From positions 1-64,000 of the forward strand of contig WSXV01000006.1 of assembly GCA_009773475.1 (NCBI GenBank): DNA of 64,000 nt. The letters are read 5' to 3'. A program made the position numbers and the translations under genes. The notes below the pieces were generated by a model that did no database searches, had not been told where the DNA came from, and saw nothing but the letters and a program-made list of their open reading frames with translations. This document shows, one piece after another, positions 45,685 through 54,676 of this stretch. The DNA is from Desulfobulbaceae bacterium (GTDB taxonomy: Bacteria > Desulfobacterota > Desulfobulbia > Desulfobulbales > Desulfocapsaceae). How positions within the stretch are numbered: the first letter of the stretch is position 1; every line of letters begins with the position of its first letter.

Positions 45685-46212
45685 TTATCCAAAACAGAGG
45701 CCGCAATCAGGACAGGTGCTGGTGGTGGGAGAAAAACGAAAGCCACAGGCCGGGCACACCGTCTGCCCGGCATCGGGATTATACACGGCACCGGCATGGC
45801 TCAGATCATGGTGATCGAGTCCGGTGGTGCGCTTGAAATCCTTGGCCAATATCGCGAGGGCCTCTTCCCCATCCGCTCTTTTGATCTGCAGGAACAATTC
45901 TGTCCCGCAGCATCCCTTGCCGCAATTTCCACTTTTCTCGCCAACAATCAGGGATGGGATATATTCCTTTGCCAGAAGCTGCTGCAATTTTTTCATTTCC
46001 AACAAGGTGCCTTTGCGGATATTTACCAGATCATCATTTTCGGACAACTCCATGGATCTGGCCGACTTCTTCGCCATGAGGCCTTGTTCGGCGGCAATCT
46101 TTACCTGGCCTGAAACCAGCTCCACCGCACAGTCCGCACACCTCTTGATATCGGACCGATATTCTTCATCGCACACGGGGCAATAATTGAGCTCAGGATC
46201 TCTCTGACGCAT
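45685..46212 (-). CDS. Zinc-ribbon protein next to the selenopeptide maturase
   Basis: A 175-residue soluble protein with zinc-binding pairs at both ends: CPVCDEEYRSDIKRCADC (about 11-28) and CPACGFRFSPTTSTCPDCGLC (about 152-172), and a cysteine cluster in the middle, GNCGKGCCGTELFL (about 95-108). The middle domain resembles the small ferredoxin-like fold DUF2007 (QQLLAKEYIPSLIVGEKSG). It lies 24 nt after the radical SAM gene, so it is very likely in the same operon as sbtA and sbtM. A role in handling the peptide or the metal is possible, but not shown. Confidence 0.75.
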   Translation of the reverse strand: MRQRDPELNYCPVCDEEYRSDIKRCADCAVELVSGQVKIAAEQGLMAKKSARSMELSENDDLVNIRKGTLLEMKKLQQLLAKEYIPSLIVGEKSGNCGKGCCGTELFLQIKRADGEEALAILAKDFKRTTGLDHHDLSHAGAVYNPDAGQTVCPACGFRFSPTTSTCPDCGLCFG

Positions 46213-46236: not shown

Positions 46237-47817
46237 TTATCGTAAACGACTGCCGCCTGCCTCCTTACCCCTAGGCATCTTCCAGCAATAGGGGTCGATA
46301 TCCCGAAAGATGTCAAGGCCATAGCCATAGGCCACAGCCAGACAACCGCCGCAGACAGGTCTTATTTCACAATCCTGACAAGCCTCGGACCCCCGACGAT
46401 ATCGTGTGGCCAGAGAACCGTGATAAATATCGCTAAATGACTGCTCGCGCAAATTGCCAATCAGCGAGGGTAACTTACGGCAGGCATGCATCTCGCCATC
46501 GGGTAAAAGGGAAACAAAATTAAACCCGGCACCGCAACCATATCCGGCACACCCCCCACCATACGCCCCTCCCTTTTCATGACGCAGCAGGTTGAAGAGA
46601 TTATCCTTTGCGCCCATACAAGGATTCTTCTCCGCCGCCTGCAGATACTGCCGCAAAAAATCAGGAAAGTCCTCAGGGATAACCGAGGCCAGGGCCGCGC
46701 CCTCACCCACCATGGCCAGACGGTTAAAGGTGAACAGATCCACCCGCCCCCGCAGCAGTTCGGCGAGGGGCAGAACGTCCGCCATGTTGCTCCTGGTCAG
46801 GGTCAGCATCACCATGGAATATACGCCAAGTTCCCGCAAAAGGTCAAGAAATTCGAACGTCCGATCAAAATGACCAGCCCCCCGAATATAATCATTCTGT
46901 GGCTGCAATCCCTCAAGGCTCACCTGGTAAAATTCCGGCTGACGCACGGCCAGGATCTCCTCAATCCGCTTACGCGGCATGGGGTTGCCGAGAATGGCGG
47001 TCATAAAACCCCGATCTGTGGCCTCCTTGTACAAGGCGTTGAAATGGGGATAGAGTAAAGGGTTGCCACCGGTAAAGGTCACCTGGGTGAAGACATGATG
47101 GGCCGCACTGAAGTCATACAGCTGATCGAGCACCTTGATCCCTTGTGACAATTCCATCTCAGGGCGGTCACTGCGATCATAACAGTGTCGACAGTGCAAG
47201 TCGCAGGTCTGGGTGATATGCCATTGCAGGGTAAAAGTGGGGGTTGAAAAGTTACGGGGATCAACGATCTGTCCCCGGGGGAAAGTTTGCGGACGAACCA
47301 GTAGAGAGGCTGGGGCCAACAAGAGGCCGTGCTGAATGGCTGCGGCCAGGATATCATCAATGAGACCCACGGAAACGCATCCGGCACTGGCCGCCTCCCG
47401 GGAGTTGATCCCCTCGGTCACGATCTTCAGGGCTAAAAGCTCATGGCCGGAAGCCGCACGGGTCTGCACCATTTCACTCCCCGGCCGTTTATACACCAAC
47501 ACCCAGTCTTCTCCCCTCTCGGGGACAGTGGTTTGATCATCAAGAAATAAAGGCAGCTTCCTCCATTGAACAGGGACAAGCTCAAGCGTTGGATTAACCT
47601 GCCGCACCCGCACCGACTCGCCATCCAGTGCCGCTTTTGCAGCGACAAGATGGCGCGCACGTTCAATGGCCGCGAGATCGGCAAGAAAGGGGTGATCGGC
47701 ACAGAGCTCGGGACTCTGACGGAGCAGATCTGGAAGATCAAGCATGGAATTACGAATCGAATCAAGCTCTTGGCTATGCGAGAGAATGTGCCCGCTGACG
47801 GGATAAATGGTATCCAT
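46237..47817 (-). CDS. sbtM: Radical SAM/SPASM peptide maturase (SbtM-like)
   Basis: A 526-residue enzyme. The N-terminal 190 residues form a domain I associate with the selenobiotic maturase family. The radical SAM motif CDLHCRHC gives CX3CX2C at C205, C209, C212; GGNP at about 247 is the SAM-binding part. The C terminus is a SPASM region with many cysteines (CAGYGCGAGF, MHACRK, CQDCEIRPVCGGC), giving auxiliary 4Fe-4S clusters typical of enzymes that form thioether or other links in peptides. The substrate is inferred to be the selenocysteine peptide encoded 196 nt upstream. ATG 47817 is chosen: the frame is open to 47970 but that would cross a 13-bp hairpin at 47875-47909. There is no good ribosome-binding site at 47817. 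Confidence 0.88.
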   Translation of the reverse strand: MDTIYPVSGHILSHSQELDSIRNSMLDLPDLLRQSPELCADHPFLADLAAIERARHLVAAKAALDGESVRVRQVNPTLELVPVQWRKLPLFLDDQTTVPERGEDWVLVYKRPGSEMVQTRAASGHELLALKIVTEGINSREAASAGCVSVGLIDDILAAAIQHGLLLAPASLLVRPQTFPRGQIVDPRNFSTPTFTLQWHITQTCDLHCRHCYDRSDRPEMELSQGIKVLDQLYDFSAAHHVFTQVTFTGGNPLLYPHFNALYKEATDRGFMTAILGNPMPRKRIEEILAVRQPEFYQVSLEGLQPQNDYIRGAGHFDRTFEFLDLLRELGVYSMVMLTLTRSNMADVLPLAELLRGRVDLFTFNRLAMVGEGAALASVIPEDFPDFLRQYLQAAEKNPCMGAKDNLFNLLRHEKGGAYGGGCAGYGCGAGFNFVSLLPDGEMHACRKLPSLIGNLREQSFSDIYHGSLATRYRRGSEACQDCEIRPVCGGCLAVAYGYGLDIFRDIDPYCWKMPRGKEAGGSRLR

Positions 47818-47874
47818 AGGTTGGGTGGCTATAAAAAAGAAGAGATTAATTGCGGTGCAGTTCAGAACAAATAA

Positions 47875-47909
47875 GTAAGGCCGGTGTCCCAAATGAACAC
47901 CGGCCTTAC
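47875..47909 (-). terminator. Hairpin between sbtA and sbtM
   Basis: GTAAGGCCGGTGT (47875-47887) pairs perfectly with ACACCGGCCTTAC (47897-47909), a 13-bp stem with a 9-nt loop. On the minus strand it is followed by TTATTTGTT, a weak U-rich tract. It could end most sbtA transcripts and let some continue into sbtM, so the peptide is made in excess of its enzyme, as is common for modified peptides. A pure mRNA-stability role is also possible. Confidence 0.65.
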
Positions 47910-48012
47910 TTAACACTTGTTTTCCGGGCATTGCACCCGCATAATTCTGCTCAAGGCAGGAAAAATTCACTACTATTGATTATAATTCAGAATACCTCTC
48001 CACCGTAGTGGA

Positions 48013-48336
48013 TCAGCACCCTTCAATGGCTTTTTTTGCTTTTTTCTTCACAGGCTCGTCAACGGCTTTATCCGCAGCCTTTCCTGTCTCTTCTTTCACT
48101 GCCTCTTTTGCTTTATCGCCAGCCTGTTCTTTTGCAGCACTCACGGCGCTGTCCTTACTGCCGCCTCAGCCACTTCCTGCCGGCTTTACCATTTTTTCAA
48201 CGCTACCTGCGTTGTCTTTGGTTCCGCCTCAGCCACTCCCTGCTGCGTGTGCTCCCGGCAAAGTAATGCCACCGGCAGTAATCAAGCCGGCAACACCGAG
48301 ACCGGCCAGTATTTTCTTGAGATCAACATTTGCCAT
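48013..48336 (-). CDS. sbtA: Selenocysteine-containing modified-peptide precursor (SbtA-like), two in-frame UGA
   Basis: A 107-codon frame interrupted by UGA at codons 36 (48229-48231) and 57 (48166-48168), so gene callers will miss it. Both UGAs sit in the same motif G-S-G-UGA-G-G, and 14 nt beyond each lies a stem-loop of identical geometry. The start ATG 48336 has AGGAGGGTGAA directly upstream, and a -35/-10 promoter lies at 48412-48440. The N terminus (MANVDLKKILAGLGVAGLI ... GAHA/A) looks like a signal peptide with an A-x-A site near residue 31, placing the first motif right at the mature end. The rest is a charged A/K/E-rich helical tail ending in Gly-Cys. It precedes an SPASM enzyme. 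This matches what I recall of the 'selenobiotic' target family; no search was run. Confidence 0.85.
48135..48151 (-). promoter_or_regulatory. SECIS-like hairpin for UGA at codon 57
   Basis: On the minus strand, 14 nt after the UGA at 48166-48168: CAGCGC (48151-48146), loop CGUGA (48145-48141), GUGCUG (48140-48135), 6 bp with one G-U. It has the same spacing, stem length and loop length as the first, though the DNA differs, so the shape appears conserved. Confidence 0.6.
48198..48214 (-). promoter_or_regulatory. SECIS-like hairpin for UGA at codon 36
   Basis: On the minus strand, 14 nt after the UGA at 48229-48231: CAACGC (48214-48209), loop AGGUA (48208-48204), GCGUUG (48203-48198). The stem is perfect over 6 bp and the loop carries the G-G-U that SelB contacts in the E. 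coli fdhF hairpin. Distance and size fit a bacterial SECIS. Confidence 0.65.
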
Positions 48337-48411
48337 TTCACCCTCCTGTAAAAAAAGAATAGAAGAAAATCCATAGAGAAATACTATAAAGGCACACAGC
48401 CCTATAGGAAA

Positions 48412-48440
48412 ATCTTATCGTTTCATCTATCCTCTGTCAA
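48412..48440 (-). promoter_or_regulatory. Sigma-70 promoter of sbtA
   Basis: On the minus strand TTGACA (48440-48435), a 17-nt spacer, and TAAGAT (48417-48412). This leaves a leader of about 70 nt before the sbtA ATG at 48336. A second TTGACA at 48476-48471 has a poor -10. Confidence 0.65.
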
Positions 48441-48682
48441 GGAATGATTCTCAACTTTTCATTAGTTTTGTGTCAATTTTTTTTTAAAAAAACAATCACA
48501 GCACTTGGACTTTCAGTTTTACAAATAAAAATGCTTGCCTGTGGCATTGTCGCAAAAAAGTATTAAATTAGTGTAAATTTTGCTGATGATAAAAATTCAA
48601 CCATCCAGCAGGATGTTTACATAGATTTGATCAGTAGAAAGCACGGCCAGCATTTTTGGATAGAAATCCAGGGAGTACTCTT

Positions 48683-49699: not shown

Positions 49700-51025
49700 A
49701 TGACACTCCCCGGCAAGAAATCATTCATTCTCATCGTCATCGTGCTTCTGGTCGGCGGCGTGATGATCTGGCAGCTGGCCCGCGGCCAAAAACAGCATAC
49801 CGCCTACCGGTCTGTCGGGATCACGCGCGGTGACCTGCTGGTTTCCATCAGCGCCACCGGTACCGTTGAACCGGAAGAGGTTATCGACGTCGGTGCCCAG
49901 GTGGCAGGCCAGATCCTCTCCTTCGGCAAGGACGCCAAAGGCAAGACCGTGGATTATGGCTCAGAGGTGGACGCCGGCACGATCCTCGCCCGCATCGACG
50001 ACTCGCTCTACGCAAGCGACGTGGCCCAGGCCGAGGCCACGCTCCAGTCCGGCAAAGCCAACCTTGAGCGGGCTGAAGCAGATCTGTTCAGAACGGAACA
50101 GGAGTGGAAACGGGCGAAAAAGCTTGGCCCCTCTGAGGCCCTGTCGCAGTCAGGCTACGATAGCTACGAATCGGCCTGGAAGATGGCAAAAGCCCAGGTT
50201 GCGGTGAATCAGGCAGCCATTCGTCAAGCCGAAGCGGCACTCAAGCGAGCCCGGCGCAATCTGGGTTATTGCACCATCACCTCGCCGGTCAAGGGCATCA
50301 TCATCGACCGCCGGGTCAATACCGGCCAGACCGTGGTCGCCAGCCTCAACGCCCCCAGCCTCTTTCTGCTCGCCAAGGATCTCACCCGCATCCAGGTCTG
50401 GGTGGCGGTGAACGAGGCCGATATCGGCAAAATTCACCCAGGCCAGCCGGTAACCTTCACGGTGGACGCCTTTCCCGGACAGACCTTCAAGGGTGAGGTG
50501 AGCAAAATCCGTCTTAATGCCGCCATGACCCAGAATGTGGTCACCTACACGGTGGAGATCGCCACCGACAACAGTGATGGCCGCCTTCTTCCTTATCTGA
50601 CCGCCAATGTCCTCTTCCATCTCCAGCTGTTTGAGAATGTTTTGCAGGCTCCAAATGCAGCTCTGCGCTGGACCCCGCCCACCGACAAGGCCGCCGGTAC
50701 CACCCAGGGCCAGGATAAAAAAGGAATGAAAGAGGGAAAAAAGATGAGCCCGGGGCAGAAAGCTGCCAACGAGGCGTCCCCCGGAGCGCTCTGGGTTCTT
50801 GACGAAACTGGGAAGCCCCGCTCGATTGCAGTTCAGACAGGGGCCGGCGACGGGATCAATACCCTCATCGAAGACAATGAGGCTCTGCACGAAGGGATGC
50901 AGGTCATCACTGGAATTGAGTCACCTGATGCGAATAAGGGCAATGAGAGCGTTAGCACTCCATTTGCTCCGAAATTTCCCGGCAGCAAAAGCAGCAAGAG
51001 CCCCAGCAAAAGCGGCGGCCGCTAA
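49700..51025 (+). CDS. macA: MacA-type periplasmic adaptor of an ABC efflux pump
   Basis: Membrane-fusion protein of 441 residues linking an inner-membrane ABC exporter to an outer-membrane channel. Uncleaved N-terminal anchor (FILIVIVLLVGGVMIW), lipoyl halves ISATGTVEPEEVIDVGAQ and GYCTITSPVKGIIIDRRV, a helical hairpin between (about 105-185) and the beta-barrel region. A Lys/Gly-rich tract (QDKKGMKEGKKMSPGQ) near 335-355 and a Ser/Lys end are non-conserved additions. First gene of macA-macB(ATPase)-macB(permease)-tolC-like. Substrate not known (macrolides, peptides or lipids in relatives). Confidence 0.9.
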   Translation: MTLPGKKSFILIVIVLLVGGVMIWQLARGQKQHTAYRSVGITRGDLLVSISATGTVEPEEVIDVGAQVAGQILSFGKDAKGKTVDYGSEVDAGTILARIDDSLYASDVAQAEATLQSGKANLERAEADLFRTEQEWKRAKKLGPSEALSQSGYDSYESAWKMAKAQVAVNQAAIRQAEAALKRARRNLGYCTITSPVKGIIIDRRVNTGQTVVASLNAPSLFLLAKDLTRIQVWVAVNEADIGKIHPGQPVTFTVDAFPGQTFKGEVSKIRLNAAMTQNVVTYTVEIATDNSDGRLLPYLTANVLFHLQLFENVLQAPNAALRWTPPTDKAAGTTQGQDKKGMKEGKKMSPGQKAANEASPGALWVLDETGKPRSIAVQTGAGDGINTLIEDNEALHEGMQVITGIESPDANKGNESVSTPFAPKFPGSKSSKSPSKSGGR

Positions 51026-51061
51026 GAGCCACAATAAACGGTTACTCGAGAAAACAGCAGC

Positions 51062-51787
51062 ATGGAACTTATTAAACTTCACGGCATCGAGAAGACCTAC
51101 CAGATGGGCGACATCTCCGTGCCTGTCCTTAAAGGCATCAGCCTGACAATCCAACAGGGGGAACTGGTTGCGCTCACCGGATCTTCCGGCTCAGGCAAGA
51201 GCACCCTGATGAATATCCTTGGCTGCCTGGATCGCCCATCCGCGGGGGAATACTGGCTGGATGGAGTTGCGACCTCACAACTCTCCACCGACGAACGGGC
51301 CCTGCTCCGCAACCGAAAACTTGGCTTTGTCTTCCAGAGCTTCAACCTGCTGGCGCGCACCAGCGCCCTTGAAAATGTAGCCATGCCCCTCTCCTACACT
51401 GCAGAACATTTAAGTGACGGCGAGATCAAAAAACGGGCCACAGAGATGCTTGGCCGGGTGGGACTGGCCGACCGGCTGAACCATCATCCCTCCCAACTTT
51501 CCGGCGGCCAGCAGCAGCGGGTGGCCATCGCCCGGGCCCTGATCAACCACCCGCCGGTTCTCTTTGCCGATGAACCCACCGGCAACCTGGACTCCCGCAC
51601 CAGCGAAGAGGTGCTGCAGATGTTTGAGCGCCTCAACCGAGAGGATGGCATCACCATCATTATGGTGACCCATGACCCCAAGGTGGCGGCCCATGCCCGG
51701 CAGATCATCCGCATGGACGACGGACTGATTCAAAACAGCGCCCCGGCTTCCTTCCCTGCTCAACAACCTCCGGGTGAGCCGTCATGA
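51062..51787 (+). CDS. macB: MacB-type ABC transporter ATP-binding subunit
   Basis: A 241-residue ATPase (LolD/MacB class). Walker [13 protein letters not shown] near residue 40, Q-loop FQSFNL, signature [15 protein letters not shown] near 145, Walker [13 protein letters not shown] near 165 and switch H in MVTHD. It overlaps the permease gene by 4 nt. Unlike the E. coli protein, in which ATPase and permease are one chain, here they are separate. Confidence 0.95.
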
Positions 51788-53151
51788 GGGTTCTTACCAC
51801 CGCCCGCACCGCCTTCACGGCCCTGCGCCGCAATCCCCTGCGGGCCATGCTCACCACCCTCGGGATTGTTATCGGCGTCGGCGCAGTGATTGCGATGATG
51901 GAGATCGGCGCCGGTTCCAAGGCCGCCCTTAATAAATCCATCGCCAGCATGGGGGCCAACGTCCTGGTGATCCGGCCCGGAACCGCCTCAAGCGGCGGCG
52001 TTTCCTTTGGCGCCGGCACCACCACCTCGCTCACTCCGCTGGATTGTCAGGCCATCCTCCGTGAATGCCCAGCCATCCGCAACGCCGCGCCCATGGTCCG
52101 TGCCCGCGCCCAGGTGGTGTACGGCAACCGCAACTGGGTCCCCAATAACATCTACGGCACCACCCCAGCCTATCTCGATGTGCAGGACTGGAGCAACCTG
52201 GCTCTGGGCGAACCCTTCAACGAGCGGGACGTGCTCAACGCCAACCGGGTCTGTATCCTCGGCCAGACCCTGGCACGCGAACTTTTCGATGGAGAATCGC
52301 CCATCGGCAAGGAAATCCGCATTAAAAACATTGCCTTTCGCGTCACCGGAGTGCTCAGCACCAAAGGTTCCAACATGATGGGCTTTGATCAGGATGACGT
52401 TATCCTGGCACCCTGGACCACAATTAAATACCGGGTCAGCGGCACCAGTCTTGCCAACGTAAACCAGAGCACCTCTTCCGCCACTGATTCGGTGAACACC
52501 CTGAGCAATCTCTACCCCTCCACCCAGACCAGCCTCTATCCCAAACAATCCAGTGTTCAACAAGCTAACAATCCCATGCCGGTGCGTTTTGCCAATATTG
52601 ACCACATCATGGCCGCAGCCAACAGCGCGGCAGAGATCTCCTCGGCCATTGACCAGATCACCGAAGTTCTCCGTGAACGACATCGCCTCCAGGCCGGTGA
52701 ACCGGACGACTTCAATATTCGCGACATGGCCGAACTGACCCGCACCCTCTCCACCACCACCCTGCTGATGACTAATCTCCTGCTGGCCGTGGCGATGATC
52801 TCGCTGGTTGTGGGCGGAGTTGGAATCATGAACATCATGCTGGTTTCAGTGACCGAACGTACCCGCGAGATCGGCCTGCGCATGGCGGTAGGGGCACGGG
52901 GACGCGATATTCTCCGTCAGTTTCTGGTGGAGGCCATCGTGCTTTGCCTTACCGGTGGCGCCATGGGTATTATCCTTGGACACGGCGGCTCCCTGCTGGT
53001 GCGCTACCTGCTCAAATGGCCGGTGGAAACCTCGCCTTCCGCCATTACCTTGGCCGTTTTCGTCTCTGCCGGGGTGGGCATCATCTTCGGCTTTTACCCG
53101 GCCTGGAAGGCCTCACGCCTTGACCCCATTGAGGCCCTGCGCTATGAATAA
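51784..53151 (+). CDS. macB: MacB-type ABC transporter permease
   Basis: Inner-membrane permease of 455 residues: helix 1 (RAMLTTLGIVIGVGAVIAMM, about 20-40), a large periplasmic domain (about 45-330), then three C-terminal helices (about 335-360, 385-415, 420-440). FtsX-like signatures VSVTERTREIGLRMAVGA and a final ASRLDPIEALRYE are present. Start overlaps the ATPase gene; end overlaps the outer-membrane gene, so the operon is tightly coupled. Confidence 0.94.
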   Translation: MRVLTTARTAFTALRRNPLRAMLTTLGIVIGVGAVIAMMEIGAGSKAALNKSIASMGANVLVIRPGTASSGGVSFGAGTTTSLTPLDCQAILRECPAIRNAAPMVRARAQVVYGNRNWVPNNIYGTTPAYLDVQDWSNLALGEPFNERDVLNANRVCILGQTLARELFDGESPIGKEIRIKNIAFRVTGVLSTKGSNMMGFDQDDVILAPWTTIKYRVSGTSLANVNQSTSSATDSVNTLSNLYPSTQTSLYPKQSSVQQANNPMPVRFANIDHIMAAANSAAEISSAIDQITEVLRERHRLQAGEPDDFNIRDMAELTRTLSTTTLLMTNLLLAVAMISLVVGGVGIMNIMLVSVTERTREIGLRMAVGARGRDILRQFLVEAIVLCLTGGAMGIILGHGGSLLVRYLLKWPVETSPSAITLAVFVSAGVGIIFGFYPAWKASRLDPIEALRYE

Positions 53152-54676
53152 TAAAAAACAATATACCGGCGGCCCATCCTTCCGGCTCATCCCTGCAACG
53201 AGAAATCCCATGCTCTCCCTCCTCTGCCGACTCTCAGGCCGAATCAGCCTGATAGTCTTTTGCGGCCTGCCCATTCTCACCAGCTGTACCCTCGGGCCTG
53301 ACTTCAAACCACCGAAGCCTGAACTCTCCAACCAGTGGTCGGAACCAACACCAACGGCAGCCATTTTCGCAAGCCTTGGTGAACAGGATCTGGCGCACTG
53401 GTGGAAGATCTTCAATGATCCTCAGCTCAGCTCGCTCATCGAGCGCGCCACCGAGGTCAACCTTGACCTGCGCATTGCCCAAAGCCGCATCCGACAGTCT
53501 CGAGCCGCATTGACCATTGCCGGGGCAAACCTTGGCCCGACGGTGGATGCCTCCGCCGCCTATCGCCGCAGTCAATCCCCCATGTCCGGCAGCGACAGCC
53601 CTGGGGCCACCACCAATCTTTACCAGACCGGGTTTGATGCCGTTTGGGAGCTTGATCTCTTTGGCGGCATCCGCCGGGAAGTTGAAGCCAGCGGCGCCGA
53701 GCTGGACTCGGCAGTTGAAAATCGCCGTGATCTGTTGGTAAGCCTCAACGCCGAGGTGGCCAACAATTATCTAAACCTGCGCTCCCTGCAGCAGCGTCTC
53801 GCCATTGCCCGCGCCAATCTGACGGCCCAGAAACATACCGTTGAGCTGACCCGACAACGCTGGGATGCGGGATTTATCAACAAGCTCGATATGGTACGCG
53901 CAGAAGCACAAGCCGCCACCACCGCCGGACAGATCCCCCTGCTGGAAGCAGCAATCCGGCAGACAATCTATGGACTCAGCCTGCTGCTGGCCAGTGAGCC
54001 TGCAACCCTTCTGGCTGAATTGACACCGGATGCCGCCTTGCCCGTGGCAATGGCCAATGTACCGCCGGGCCTGCCGTCGGAGCTGCTCCGTCGTCGGCCC
54101 GACATCCGTAGGGCCGAGGCAAACATCCATGCCGCCACCGCCCGTATCGGGGTTGCCACCGCCGATCTCTTCCCCACCTTCACCATCACCGGCAGCCTCG
54201 GTCTGCAAAACAACACCTTCAATTCCACCTTCAATCATTCCAGCCGCGCCTGGTCACTTGGCCCCTCGATCAACTGGCCACTCTTCGACATGGGCCGCAC
54301 TCGCGCCAATATTGAACTGAAAAAGGCCGTCCAGGAAGAGGAACTGCTCGCCTATGAGCAGACCGTCCTCACCGCCTTAAACGAAGTTGAAAATGCCCTG
54401 GTCGCCGCAAGCAAAGAGGAGGAGCATCGAAAATCCCTGGCCATTGCGGTCACTGCCAATCGCGCGGCCTTGAAGCTTGCCTCCACCCTCTATGCCGCCG
54501 GTGAGACTGATTTCCTCTCCGTGCTCGATGCCCAGCGCGCCCTCTTCATCACTGAAGAGGCTTTGGCCCAGAGCAGTAAAACCGTCTGCACCAATCTGGT
54601 CGCCCTGTTCAAGGCTCTCGGTGGCGGCTGGCAAGAAGATAAAAACAGCAATATCGACAAGGTTCCTAACGCATAG
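53144..54676 (+). CDS. TolC/NodT-family outer-membrane efflux lipoprotein
   Basis: Outer-membrane channel of 510 residues. The lipobox is LTSC near residue 46 after the hydrophobic SLIVFCGLPI; the first 20 residues look too long for a lipoprotein leader, so the start could be ATG 53210. ATG 53144 is given because it overlaps the macB stop. The mature protein opens with the NodT-family pattern LGPDFKPPKP and WWKIFNDPQLSSLI. Two TolC domain halves follow, including RRPDIRRAEANIHAATARIGVATADLFPT in pieces. Completes the MacAB export complex. Confidence 0.91.
   Translation: MNNKKQYTGGPSFRLIPATRNPMLSLLCRLSGRISLIVFCGLPILTSCTLGPDFKPPKPELSNQWSEPTPTAAIFASLGEQDLAHWWKIFNDPQLSSLIERATEVNLDLRIAQSRIRQSRAALTIAGANLGPTVDASAAYRRSQSPMSGSDSPGATTNLYQTGFDAVWELDLFGGIRREVEASGAELDSAVENRRDLLVSLNAEVANNYLNLRSLQQRLAIARANLTAQKHTVELTRQRWDAGFINKLDMVRAEAQAATTAGQIPLLEAAIRQTIYGLSLLLASEPATLLAELTPDAALPVAMANVPPGLPSELLRRRPDIRRAEANIHAATARIGVATADLFPTFTITGSLGLQNNTFNSTFNHSSRAWSLGPSINWPLFDMGRTRANIELKKAVQEEELLAYEQTVLTALNEVENALVAASKEEEHRKSLAIAVTANRAALKLASTLYAAGETDFLSVLDAQRALFITEEALAQSSKTVCTNLVALFKALGGGWQEDKNSNIDKVPNA

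Follow-up and report, generated by a model that had tools for sequence, protein, structure and literature searches.

Introduction

The SbtA/SbtM system is a known kind of system, and its chemistry has been partly worked out. Its precursors are collected in NCBIfam as TIGR04081, 'SbtA family thio(seleno)oxazole RiPP natural product precursor', and PMC13188914 lists the same profile as 'Selenobacteriocin' with the motif SGUG. According to Lewis 2021, as related in PMC11002830, another SbtM converted Cys or Sec into a thio(seleno)oxazole, with the ring formed at the Cys or Sec itself; the same text describes a loss of four hydrogens by Cys and by Sec substrates, and a thiooxazole identified by NMR of the Cys product. 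In bufferins, Cys-derived thiooxazoles hold periplasmic copper; these peptides bear Sec signal peptides, which are considered highly unusual for RiPP precursors, and in Buf2 about 16% are of the lipoprotein type (PMC12452194). Captophorins likewise bind copper (PMC12668002). For the SbtA family, we found no statement in the open literature on signal-peptide leaders, more than two Sec residues or a SECIS past the stop codon; Haft & Basu 2011 and Lewis 2021 may contain one.

In the present study, we analysed a window, the whole stretch of 64,000 nucleotides from a Desulfobulbaceae bacterium, in which an original prediction had placed a hidden selenopeptide precursor gene. Related loci, genomes and database proteins are cited by their numbers in our survey (L, G and P).

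Results

The sbtA frame and its family membership

The features of the locus are collected in Table 1. The original prediction described a 107-codon frame with two UGAs in GSGUGG motifs and gave no strand; we found this frame on the minus strand, and the plus-strand frame at 48013..48336 differs from it. With U for UGA, the SbtA translation is MANVDLKKILAGLGVAGLITAGGITLPGAHAAGSGUGGTKDNAGSVEKMVKPAGSGUGGSKDSAVSAAKEQAGDKAKEAVKEETGKAADKAVDEPVKKKAKKAIEGC. The ribosome-binding site that had been claimed is present 5' of the ATG. For the claimed promoter the evidence is weak: two TTGACA-type sites lie upstream, but a scan of 3.3 kb turned up six promoter-like sites, and shuffled sequence gave 3.0 +/- 1.5. 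As had been stated, a stop-terminated search gave only short pieces: the ORF list under translation table 11 contained no minus-strand ORF of at least 60 aa at sbtA. The same list contained two antisense ORFs over sbtA, one of 122 aa (48008-48376, plus strand) and one of 76 aa.

Table 1. Features of the sbtA/sbtM locus in the window.
Feature	Position	Strand	Remarks
Two adjoining sigma-70-like (TTGACA-type) promoter candidates	48476..48447 and 48440..48412 (span 48412..48476)	-	weak
Shine-Dalgarno AGGAGG	48342..48347	-	5' of sbtA ATG; from sequence
sbtA, selenopeptide precursor gene	48336..48013	-	107 codons + stop; in-frame UGA at codons 36 and 57 (TGA=U translation); TIGR04081 match
Leader, residues 1-31 (MANVDLKKILAGLGVAGLITAGGITLPGAHA)	48244..48336	-	Sec-signal-peptide shape; cleavage predicted at AHA, ahead of AGSGUGG
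UGA codon 36, predicted selenocysteine	48229..48231	-	context GSGUGG; hairpin 3' of codon
SECIS-type hairpin 1	48198..48214	-	AACGC-AGGTA-GCGTT + one outer pair; 6 bp stem; covariance model 46.7 bits, E 3.6e-8
UGA codon 57, predicted selenocysteine	48166..48168	-	context GSGUGG; hairpin 3' of codon
SECIS-type hairpin 2	48135..48151	-	AGCGC-CGTGA-GTGCT + one outer pair; one G-U pair; covariance model 37.6 bits, E 2.9e-6
Third in-frame UGA, read as ordinary stop of sbtA	48015-48013	-	
Strong hairpin with T-rich tail, likely terminator or attenuator	47872..47912	-	18 bp, -31 kcal/mol; between sbtA and sbtM
sbtM, radical SAM/SPASM maturase	46237..47817	-	ATG 47817 likely start, in-frame GTG 47970 possible; TIGR04082
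Zinc ribbon (seleno)protein DG, Cys form	45685..46212	-	NF049953 233.5 bits, cut-off 130; directly downstream of sbtM

The leader scored 41.9 bits against TIGR04081 over residues 1-27 (cut-off 30.5), the profile that the original prediction had correctly named, and this was the only match in the genome (48256-48336, minus strand). Besides the leader score, GSGUGG occurs twice in the precursor, with Cys versions in relatives, and SbtM is encoded in the same genome. A Pfam scan of the precursor gave nothing above cut-off; PF27804 is a precomputed label that the scan did not return. In database proteins P0003-P0013 of the SbtA family, Trp stands at the Sec positions, evidently from UGA translated as Trp, and we read the W at both Sec places as translation under code 4. 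UGA as a Trp codon was rejected for this genome: Cys occupies the motif in relatives, 4 of the 12 window genes inspected end in UGA, and a tRNA-Sec is present.

A survey of 395 genomes of the phylum revealed SbtM in 39 and SbtA in 39 (37 over cut-off), with both in 37 (Fisher p 3.6e-47). The SbtA-only matches in G176 and G305 (L103, L104) fall within frames that stay open for 363 and 356 codons; we judged them unrelated. As for the SbtM-only genomes, G129 has an all-Cys SbtA (L027) beside sbtM, and no SbtA was found within 3.5 kb of sbtM in G289 (L100). Precursor and maturase lie on separate contigs in G088, G339 and G376. The closest named relatives among the matches listed were Desulfocapsa/Desulfobulbaceae MAGs, with an SbtM identity of 82-83%. 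The original prediction had called the system a rare class; this stands in part, as SbtM in 39 of 395 genomes is not very rare in the phylum and the class was already described.

We collected 62 SbtA frames, from which the two false matches (L103, L104) were removed, leaving 60 with the window included. They hold 140 putative Sec codons, with 14 further UGAs set aside by judgement of context as stops or tails past the stop. The number of Sec per precursor was 0 in 4 frames, 1 in 6, 2 in 20, 3 in 26 and 4 in 4. Cys takes the motif position throughout L027 and in a C-terminal GSGC in L013; L096 and L090 are mixed, combining several Cys-Gly motifs with a single GSGUG at the C-terminus. Next to the Sec-containing precursors of G053 and G196 lie second lipobox peptides that resemble SbtA and have no Sec (L101 and L102).

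Coding conservation across the UGAs

The original prediction named loss of the frame across the UGAs in related genomes as grounds for abandoning it; the frame proved to be conserved. We compared four genus-level copies with the window by codon position. Between the two UGAs, the differences at positions 1/2/3 were 1/0/6 for L047, 1/1/4 for L048, 1/3/7 for L071 and 3/4/5 for L032. Past codon 57, they were 3/2/13, 4/5/16, 7/7/25 and 7/11/19, respectively. In the more distant L032, nonsynonymous codon differences past codon 57 (17) outnumbered synonymous ones (8). By this measure, the divergence of the three closer copies, L047, L048 and L071, is of the coding type, and L032 is ambiguous.

The third in-frame UGA, after IEGC, was rejected as a Sec codon. 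In an alignment of five genus-level copies, L048, L071 and L032 end with TAA or TAG after the same Gly-Cys, and no qualifying hairpin lies 3' of the terminal UGA in the window or in L047.

SECIS-type hairpins follow the putative Sec codons

The distance from the UGA to the apical loop was 20 nt for UGA 36, and the spacing was the same for UGA 57. Across the family, a hairpin with GG or GT in the loop followed 137 of the 140 putative Sec codons, compared with 183 of 2800 shuffled segments. With the loop centre required at 20-30 nt from the UGA, the hairpin was in place for 128 of 140 Sec codons and for 1 of 39 Cys codons; these controls were the 45 Cys past residue 30 minus six within 10 codons of a Sec. 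The single exception, Cys95 of L013, lies in the C-terminal motif and is likely a former Sec that retained its hairpin after a recent Sec-to-Cys change.

The published limits for bacterial SECIS elements (PMC13188914, Fig. 2 legend) are a 4-16 bp stem, a 3-9 nt loop, a G in the first two loop positions, a spacing of 16-37 nt and an MFE of at most -7.5. Under these constraints, 132 of 140 Sec codons passed, compared with 343 of 1400 shuffles. UGA 36 passed at every one of the four folding lengths, UGA 57 at a single one (50 nt) and the terminal UGA at none.

We aligned 38 gapless segments, leaving out the window, L047 and L048 and including the genus-level L071 and L032; all six pairs had two-sided changes in some of the sequences. 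Paired cells made up 98.2%, compared with 80.3% after shuffling and at most 50.9% with slid partners, the 98.2% being inflated because the aligned segments had all been accepted by the hairpin finder. The fair tests are the shuffle and Cys-codon counts given above. A covariance model built from these segments, with no window sequence among them, found exactly two places in the window, both of them sbtA UGAs. In the 3.03 Mb genome, with 150 of 1419 first-look candidates scored, it found the same two and no other. Because the UGA and its GGCGG context are part of it, the model describes SbtA Sec sites and not SECIS elements in general. The strict hairpin finder is no general SECIS test either, as it misses the Sec-type SelD UGA of this genome (score 8.8). 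At gathering thresholds, Rfam gave no match in the window.

A stretch like S-A-V-S or G-A-G-S follows 76 of 98 internal Sec residues (strict pattern), compared with 1 of 26 Cys, the lone Cys being a lipobox-type residue just 5' of a Sec in L038. This stretch is likely an imprint of the hairpin and not part of the peptide motif. For Sec codons near the C-terminus, the hairpin loop lies beyond the stop codon in 41 of 42 cases; the literature places bacterial SECIS elements within coding regions. We found at least eight close UGA pairs, and in seven of eight the first UGA was without its own hairpin in the usual range; this count was sorted by locus, and loci with two precursors may hide more. 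In L037, L024, L021, L106, L080, L009 and L010, UGAs 3-6 codons apart share one hairpin, in range for the second only. At the end of sbtA in L009 and L010, a UGA is followed directly by TAA (TGATAA in L009), and a SECIS-type hairpin is suitably spaced from that UGA; Sec may be the final residue there.

Selenocysteine machinery of the genome

Absence of selA, selB, selC and selD had also been named as grounds for dismissal; all four are present. The profile search of the genome revealed SelA (622 bits), SelB (392 bits), SelD (375 bits; its frame contains one TGA) and a tRNA-Sec (69.1 bits, anticodon tca). SelA is found in 37 of 39 SbtM genomes, but 355 of the 395 phylum genomes have it too, so its presence is necessary and discriminates little. 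A second tRNA-Sec-like gene, on contig C4 of the same genome (L002:1501-1598), scored 47.9 bits (Rfam cut-off 47) with TCA at the anticodon place. It lies between apparent hdrA and mvhD genes, received no ARAGORN call and may be degenerate or unusual.

The maturase and neighbouring elements

The next gene downstream passed TIGR04082 with 663.4 bits, 313 bits over the cut-off of 350, which agreed with the statement that sbtA lies directly upstream of a radical SAM/SPASM gene. The SPASM domain was recognised by Pfam (36.6 bits, cut-off 21.5). The CX3CX2C cysteines (C205, C209, C212) were invariant in 45 sequences, as were eight further Cys (C423, C428, C446, C480, C483, C489, C492, C511). The AlphaFold model of SbtM had a pLDDT of 91.7 and a pTM of 0.89. 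In this model, residues 79-162 form three strands and then three helices, with a short helix between strands 1 and 2; the radical SAM region, in which strands and helices alternate, comes next. The order at 79-162 is presumably that of an RRE leader-binding domain. The closest solved structures, as best sequence and fold matches, were 5wgg, which we take to be CteB, 5v1q (SuiB) and 6efn (SkfB). The strand and helix order and these matches suggest that residues 79-162 of the model are an RRE-like domain.

A strong hairpin separates sbtA from sbtM (Table 1). Of 14 loci examined, 12 have a hairpin of -20 kcal/mol or stronger within 170 nt 3' of the sbtA stop, a count made without a shuffle control. 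The gene for DG, a protein that a review lists as a selenoprotein with the motif GUxG, lies beside sbtM in seven entries (the window twice, L031, L032, L047, L048 and L049). We rejected DG as a core partner, as it adjoins sbtM in genus-level loci only; it is probably not a core part. On the plus strand at 49700-54676, a divergent cluster resembles, as read from translations, an HlyD-type protein, an ABC ATPase, a MacB-like permease and an outer-membrane factor.

The leader resembles a signal peptide

The signal-peptide-like leader of the original prediction is in keeping with pattern and hydropathy, on which all signal-peptide calls here are based: the core, the AHA-type end and the lipobox variants of relatives all fit. 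A hydrophobic core (best 12-mer Kyte-Doolittle of at least 1.85) was found in 59 of 59 complete leaders. The lipobox pattern matched 19 of 59, of which 16 are credible after discounting L009 and L027 (core Cys) and L063 (ambiguous). The leaders have a Lys-rich start, and in many of the others an AHA/A-like end lies just 5' of the first Sec motif.

No exporter, protease or metal gene recurred at the loci, and no family beyond sbtA/sbtM occurred in more than 7 of 52 entries, where the window was counted twice and frames over sbtM/sbtA themselves were set apart; distant partners could be missed because only 12 of the 52 entries have at least 3.5 kb on both sides of sbtM. This result is compatible with general Sec export and signal peptidase. 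Judged from the leaders, SbtA peptides are likely exported via the general Sec pathway.

Discussion

The TIGR04081 leader score, the recurrence of the frame with its UGAs in relatives and the SECIS-type hairpin after both UGAs confirmed that the sbtA frame is more than chance. The frame, its UGAs and hairpins, the adjacent sbtM and the selenocysteine machinery of the genome can be read directly from the DNA. The reading of the locus as a selenopeptide precursor with a radical SAM/SPASM maturase was supported by family libraries, relatives and RNA hairpins. We consider it probable, with good confidence, that UGA 36 and UGA 57 are read as Sec, that SbtM converts each into a selenooxazole and that the peptide is then likely exported by the Sec pathway.

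On this reading, transcription would start upstream of sbtA, and the hairpin of -31 kcal/mol would yield more precursor than maturase message. SelB and Sec-tRNA would decode the two UGAs via their hairpins. SbtM would bind the leader and cyclise each Sec to a selenooxazole, with four hydrogens lost per residue, as in the in vitro work on another SbtM, reportedly that of Geobacter lovleyi. The anatomy of the leader suggests that it would serve both maturase recognition and export as a signal peptide. Cleavage near AHA/A would then release a peptide of some 76 residues, rich in Lys, Glu and Ala, that carries two selenooxazoles. For a cut after AHA, the calculated monoisotopic mass is 7500.59 without modification and 7492.53 once two rings have cost 8 H. 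In the least certain step, the selenolate rings might bind a soft metal in the periplasm, by analogy with the thiooxazoles of bufferins and captophorins.

Two other readings concern the frame itself. If both UGAs were stops, the real product would be a 35-residue peptide and the downstream similarity leftover sequence. It is true that UGA serves as an ordinary stop codon here, as in 4 of the 12 window genes inspected, and that databases hold SbtA relatives of 58-66 aa (P0014-P0020), with P0014, P0015 and P0024 ending ...GSG before a UGA. Nevertheless, divergence after both UGAs is biased to third positions in the three closer copies, covarying hairpins stand at each UGA, and some relatives have Cys at the equivalent motif, which makes termination at these codons very improbable. 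The reading that the antisense ORF is the real gene, with the minus frame there by coincidence, has almost no chance of being right. Its 122 open codons speak for it, but conservation tracks the minus frame and its third positions, and the lone TIGR04081 match is on the minus strand.

The remaining alternatives accept the two Sec residues and concern their fate. SbtM might make a thioether- or selenoether-type cross-link, as in sactipeptides or ranthipeptides, and not a selenooxazole; its closest solved structures, CteB, SuiB and SkfB, point in that direction. Against a cross-link stand the four-hydrogen loss on Cys and Sec and the NMR-based thiooxazole of the Cys product described in PMC11002830, and the Gly-rich motif context offers few cross-link partners. 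We regard a cross-link as quite improbable. The leader, for its part, might be a RiPP leader bound by SbtM and nothing more, with the product staying inside or using another exporter. The RRE-order domain of the SbtM model (79-162) speaks for this, and if modelled correctly it means that the leader must also serve recognition. A leader for recognition only would leave aside the Lys-rich start, the core in 59/59, the AHA-type ends and the lipobox in 16/59, and no exporter or protease family recurred at the loci (only 12 of 52 entries with at least 3.5 kb on both sides). We therefore judge this alternative unlikely, and we retain the reading of Sec-derived selenooxazoles on a peptide that is likely exported.

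Beyond this, we propose tentatively, giving it somewhat less than an even chance, that SbtA peptides are exported seleno-metallophores: they would carry a genuine signal peptide, of the Sec or lipoprotein type, and up to four selenooxazoles made by the radical SAM chemistry of SbtM, would hold soft metals in the periplasm or at the outer membrane, and would be a selenium counterpart, evolved apart, of the thiooxazole captophorins. As part of the same proposal, the mRNAs of the family would carry about one bacterial SECIS per Sec, including one beyond the stop for a C-terminal Sec. Metal binding is our best guess because the ring, the motif and the leader resemble those of bufferins and captophorins.

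Genes with in-frame UGAs are missed or truncated by annotation, and the SbtA family is a clean case of a readable RNA signal. The hairpin survey tells the demands of the RNA (the SAVS/GAGS stretch after internal Sec) from those that the maturase likely makes (SGU-G). Should the leader be a signal peptide, the role of the selenopeptides becomes testable as periplasmic metal binding.

Comparison with known systems

The locus shares with the published SbtA/SbtM thio(seleno)oxazole RiPP system the leader and maturase profiles, the SGUG motif and UGA-encoded Sec with SECIS. PMC13188914 gives the figure 2 for the SbtA family, which we took as the number of Sec, whereas 26 of the 60 frames here have three and 4 have four.

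The ACGX system (TIGR04340), whose substrates are Cys-Gly repeats, was the second-best profile for SbtM, at 174.5 bits and below its own cut-off of 400. The sactipeptide/ranthipeptide synthases SkfB, CteB and SuiB share the radical SAM and SPASM architecture of SbtM and make thioether or carbon-carbon links.

Bufferins and captophorins resemble SbtA in their Sec or lipoprotein signal peptides (putative ones in SbtA, by pattern and hydropathy), in their Cys-Gly motifs (Sec-Gly in SbtA) and in a sulfur-bearing oxazole ring. They differ in maturation, which depends on an MNIO and a partner protein and not on the radical SAM enzyme SbtM, and in carrying sulfur where SbtA carries selenium; SbtA, moreover, is not known to have a link to metals. 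At the sbtA locus, the adjacent maturase is a radical SAM/SPASM protein and not an MNIO; SbtA is therefore not a member of the bufferins or captophorins, only a possible functional analogue.
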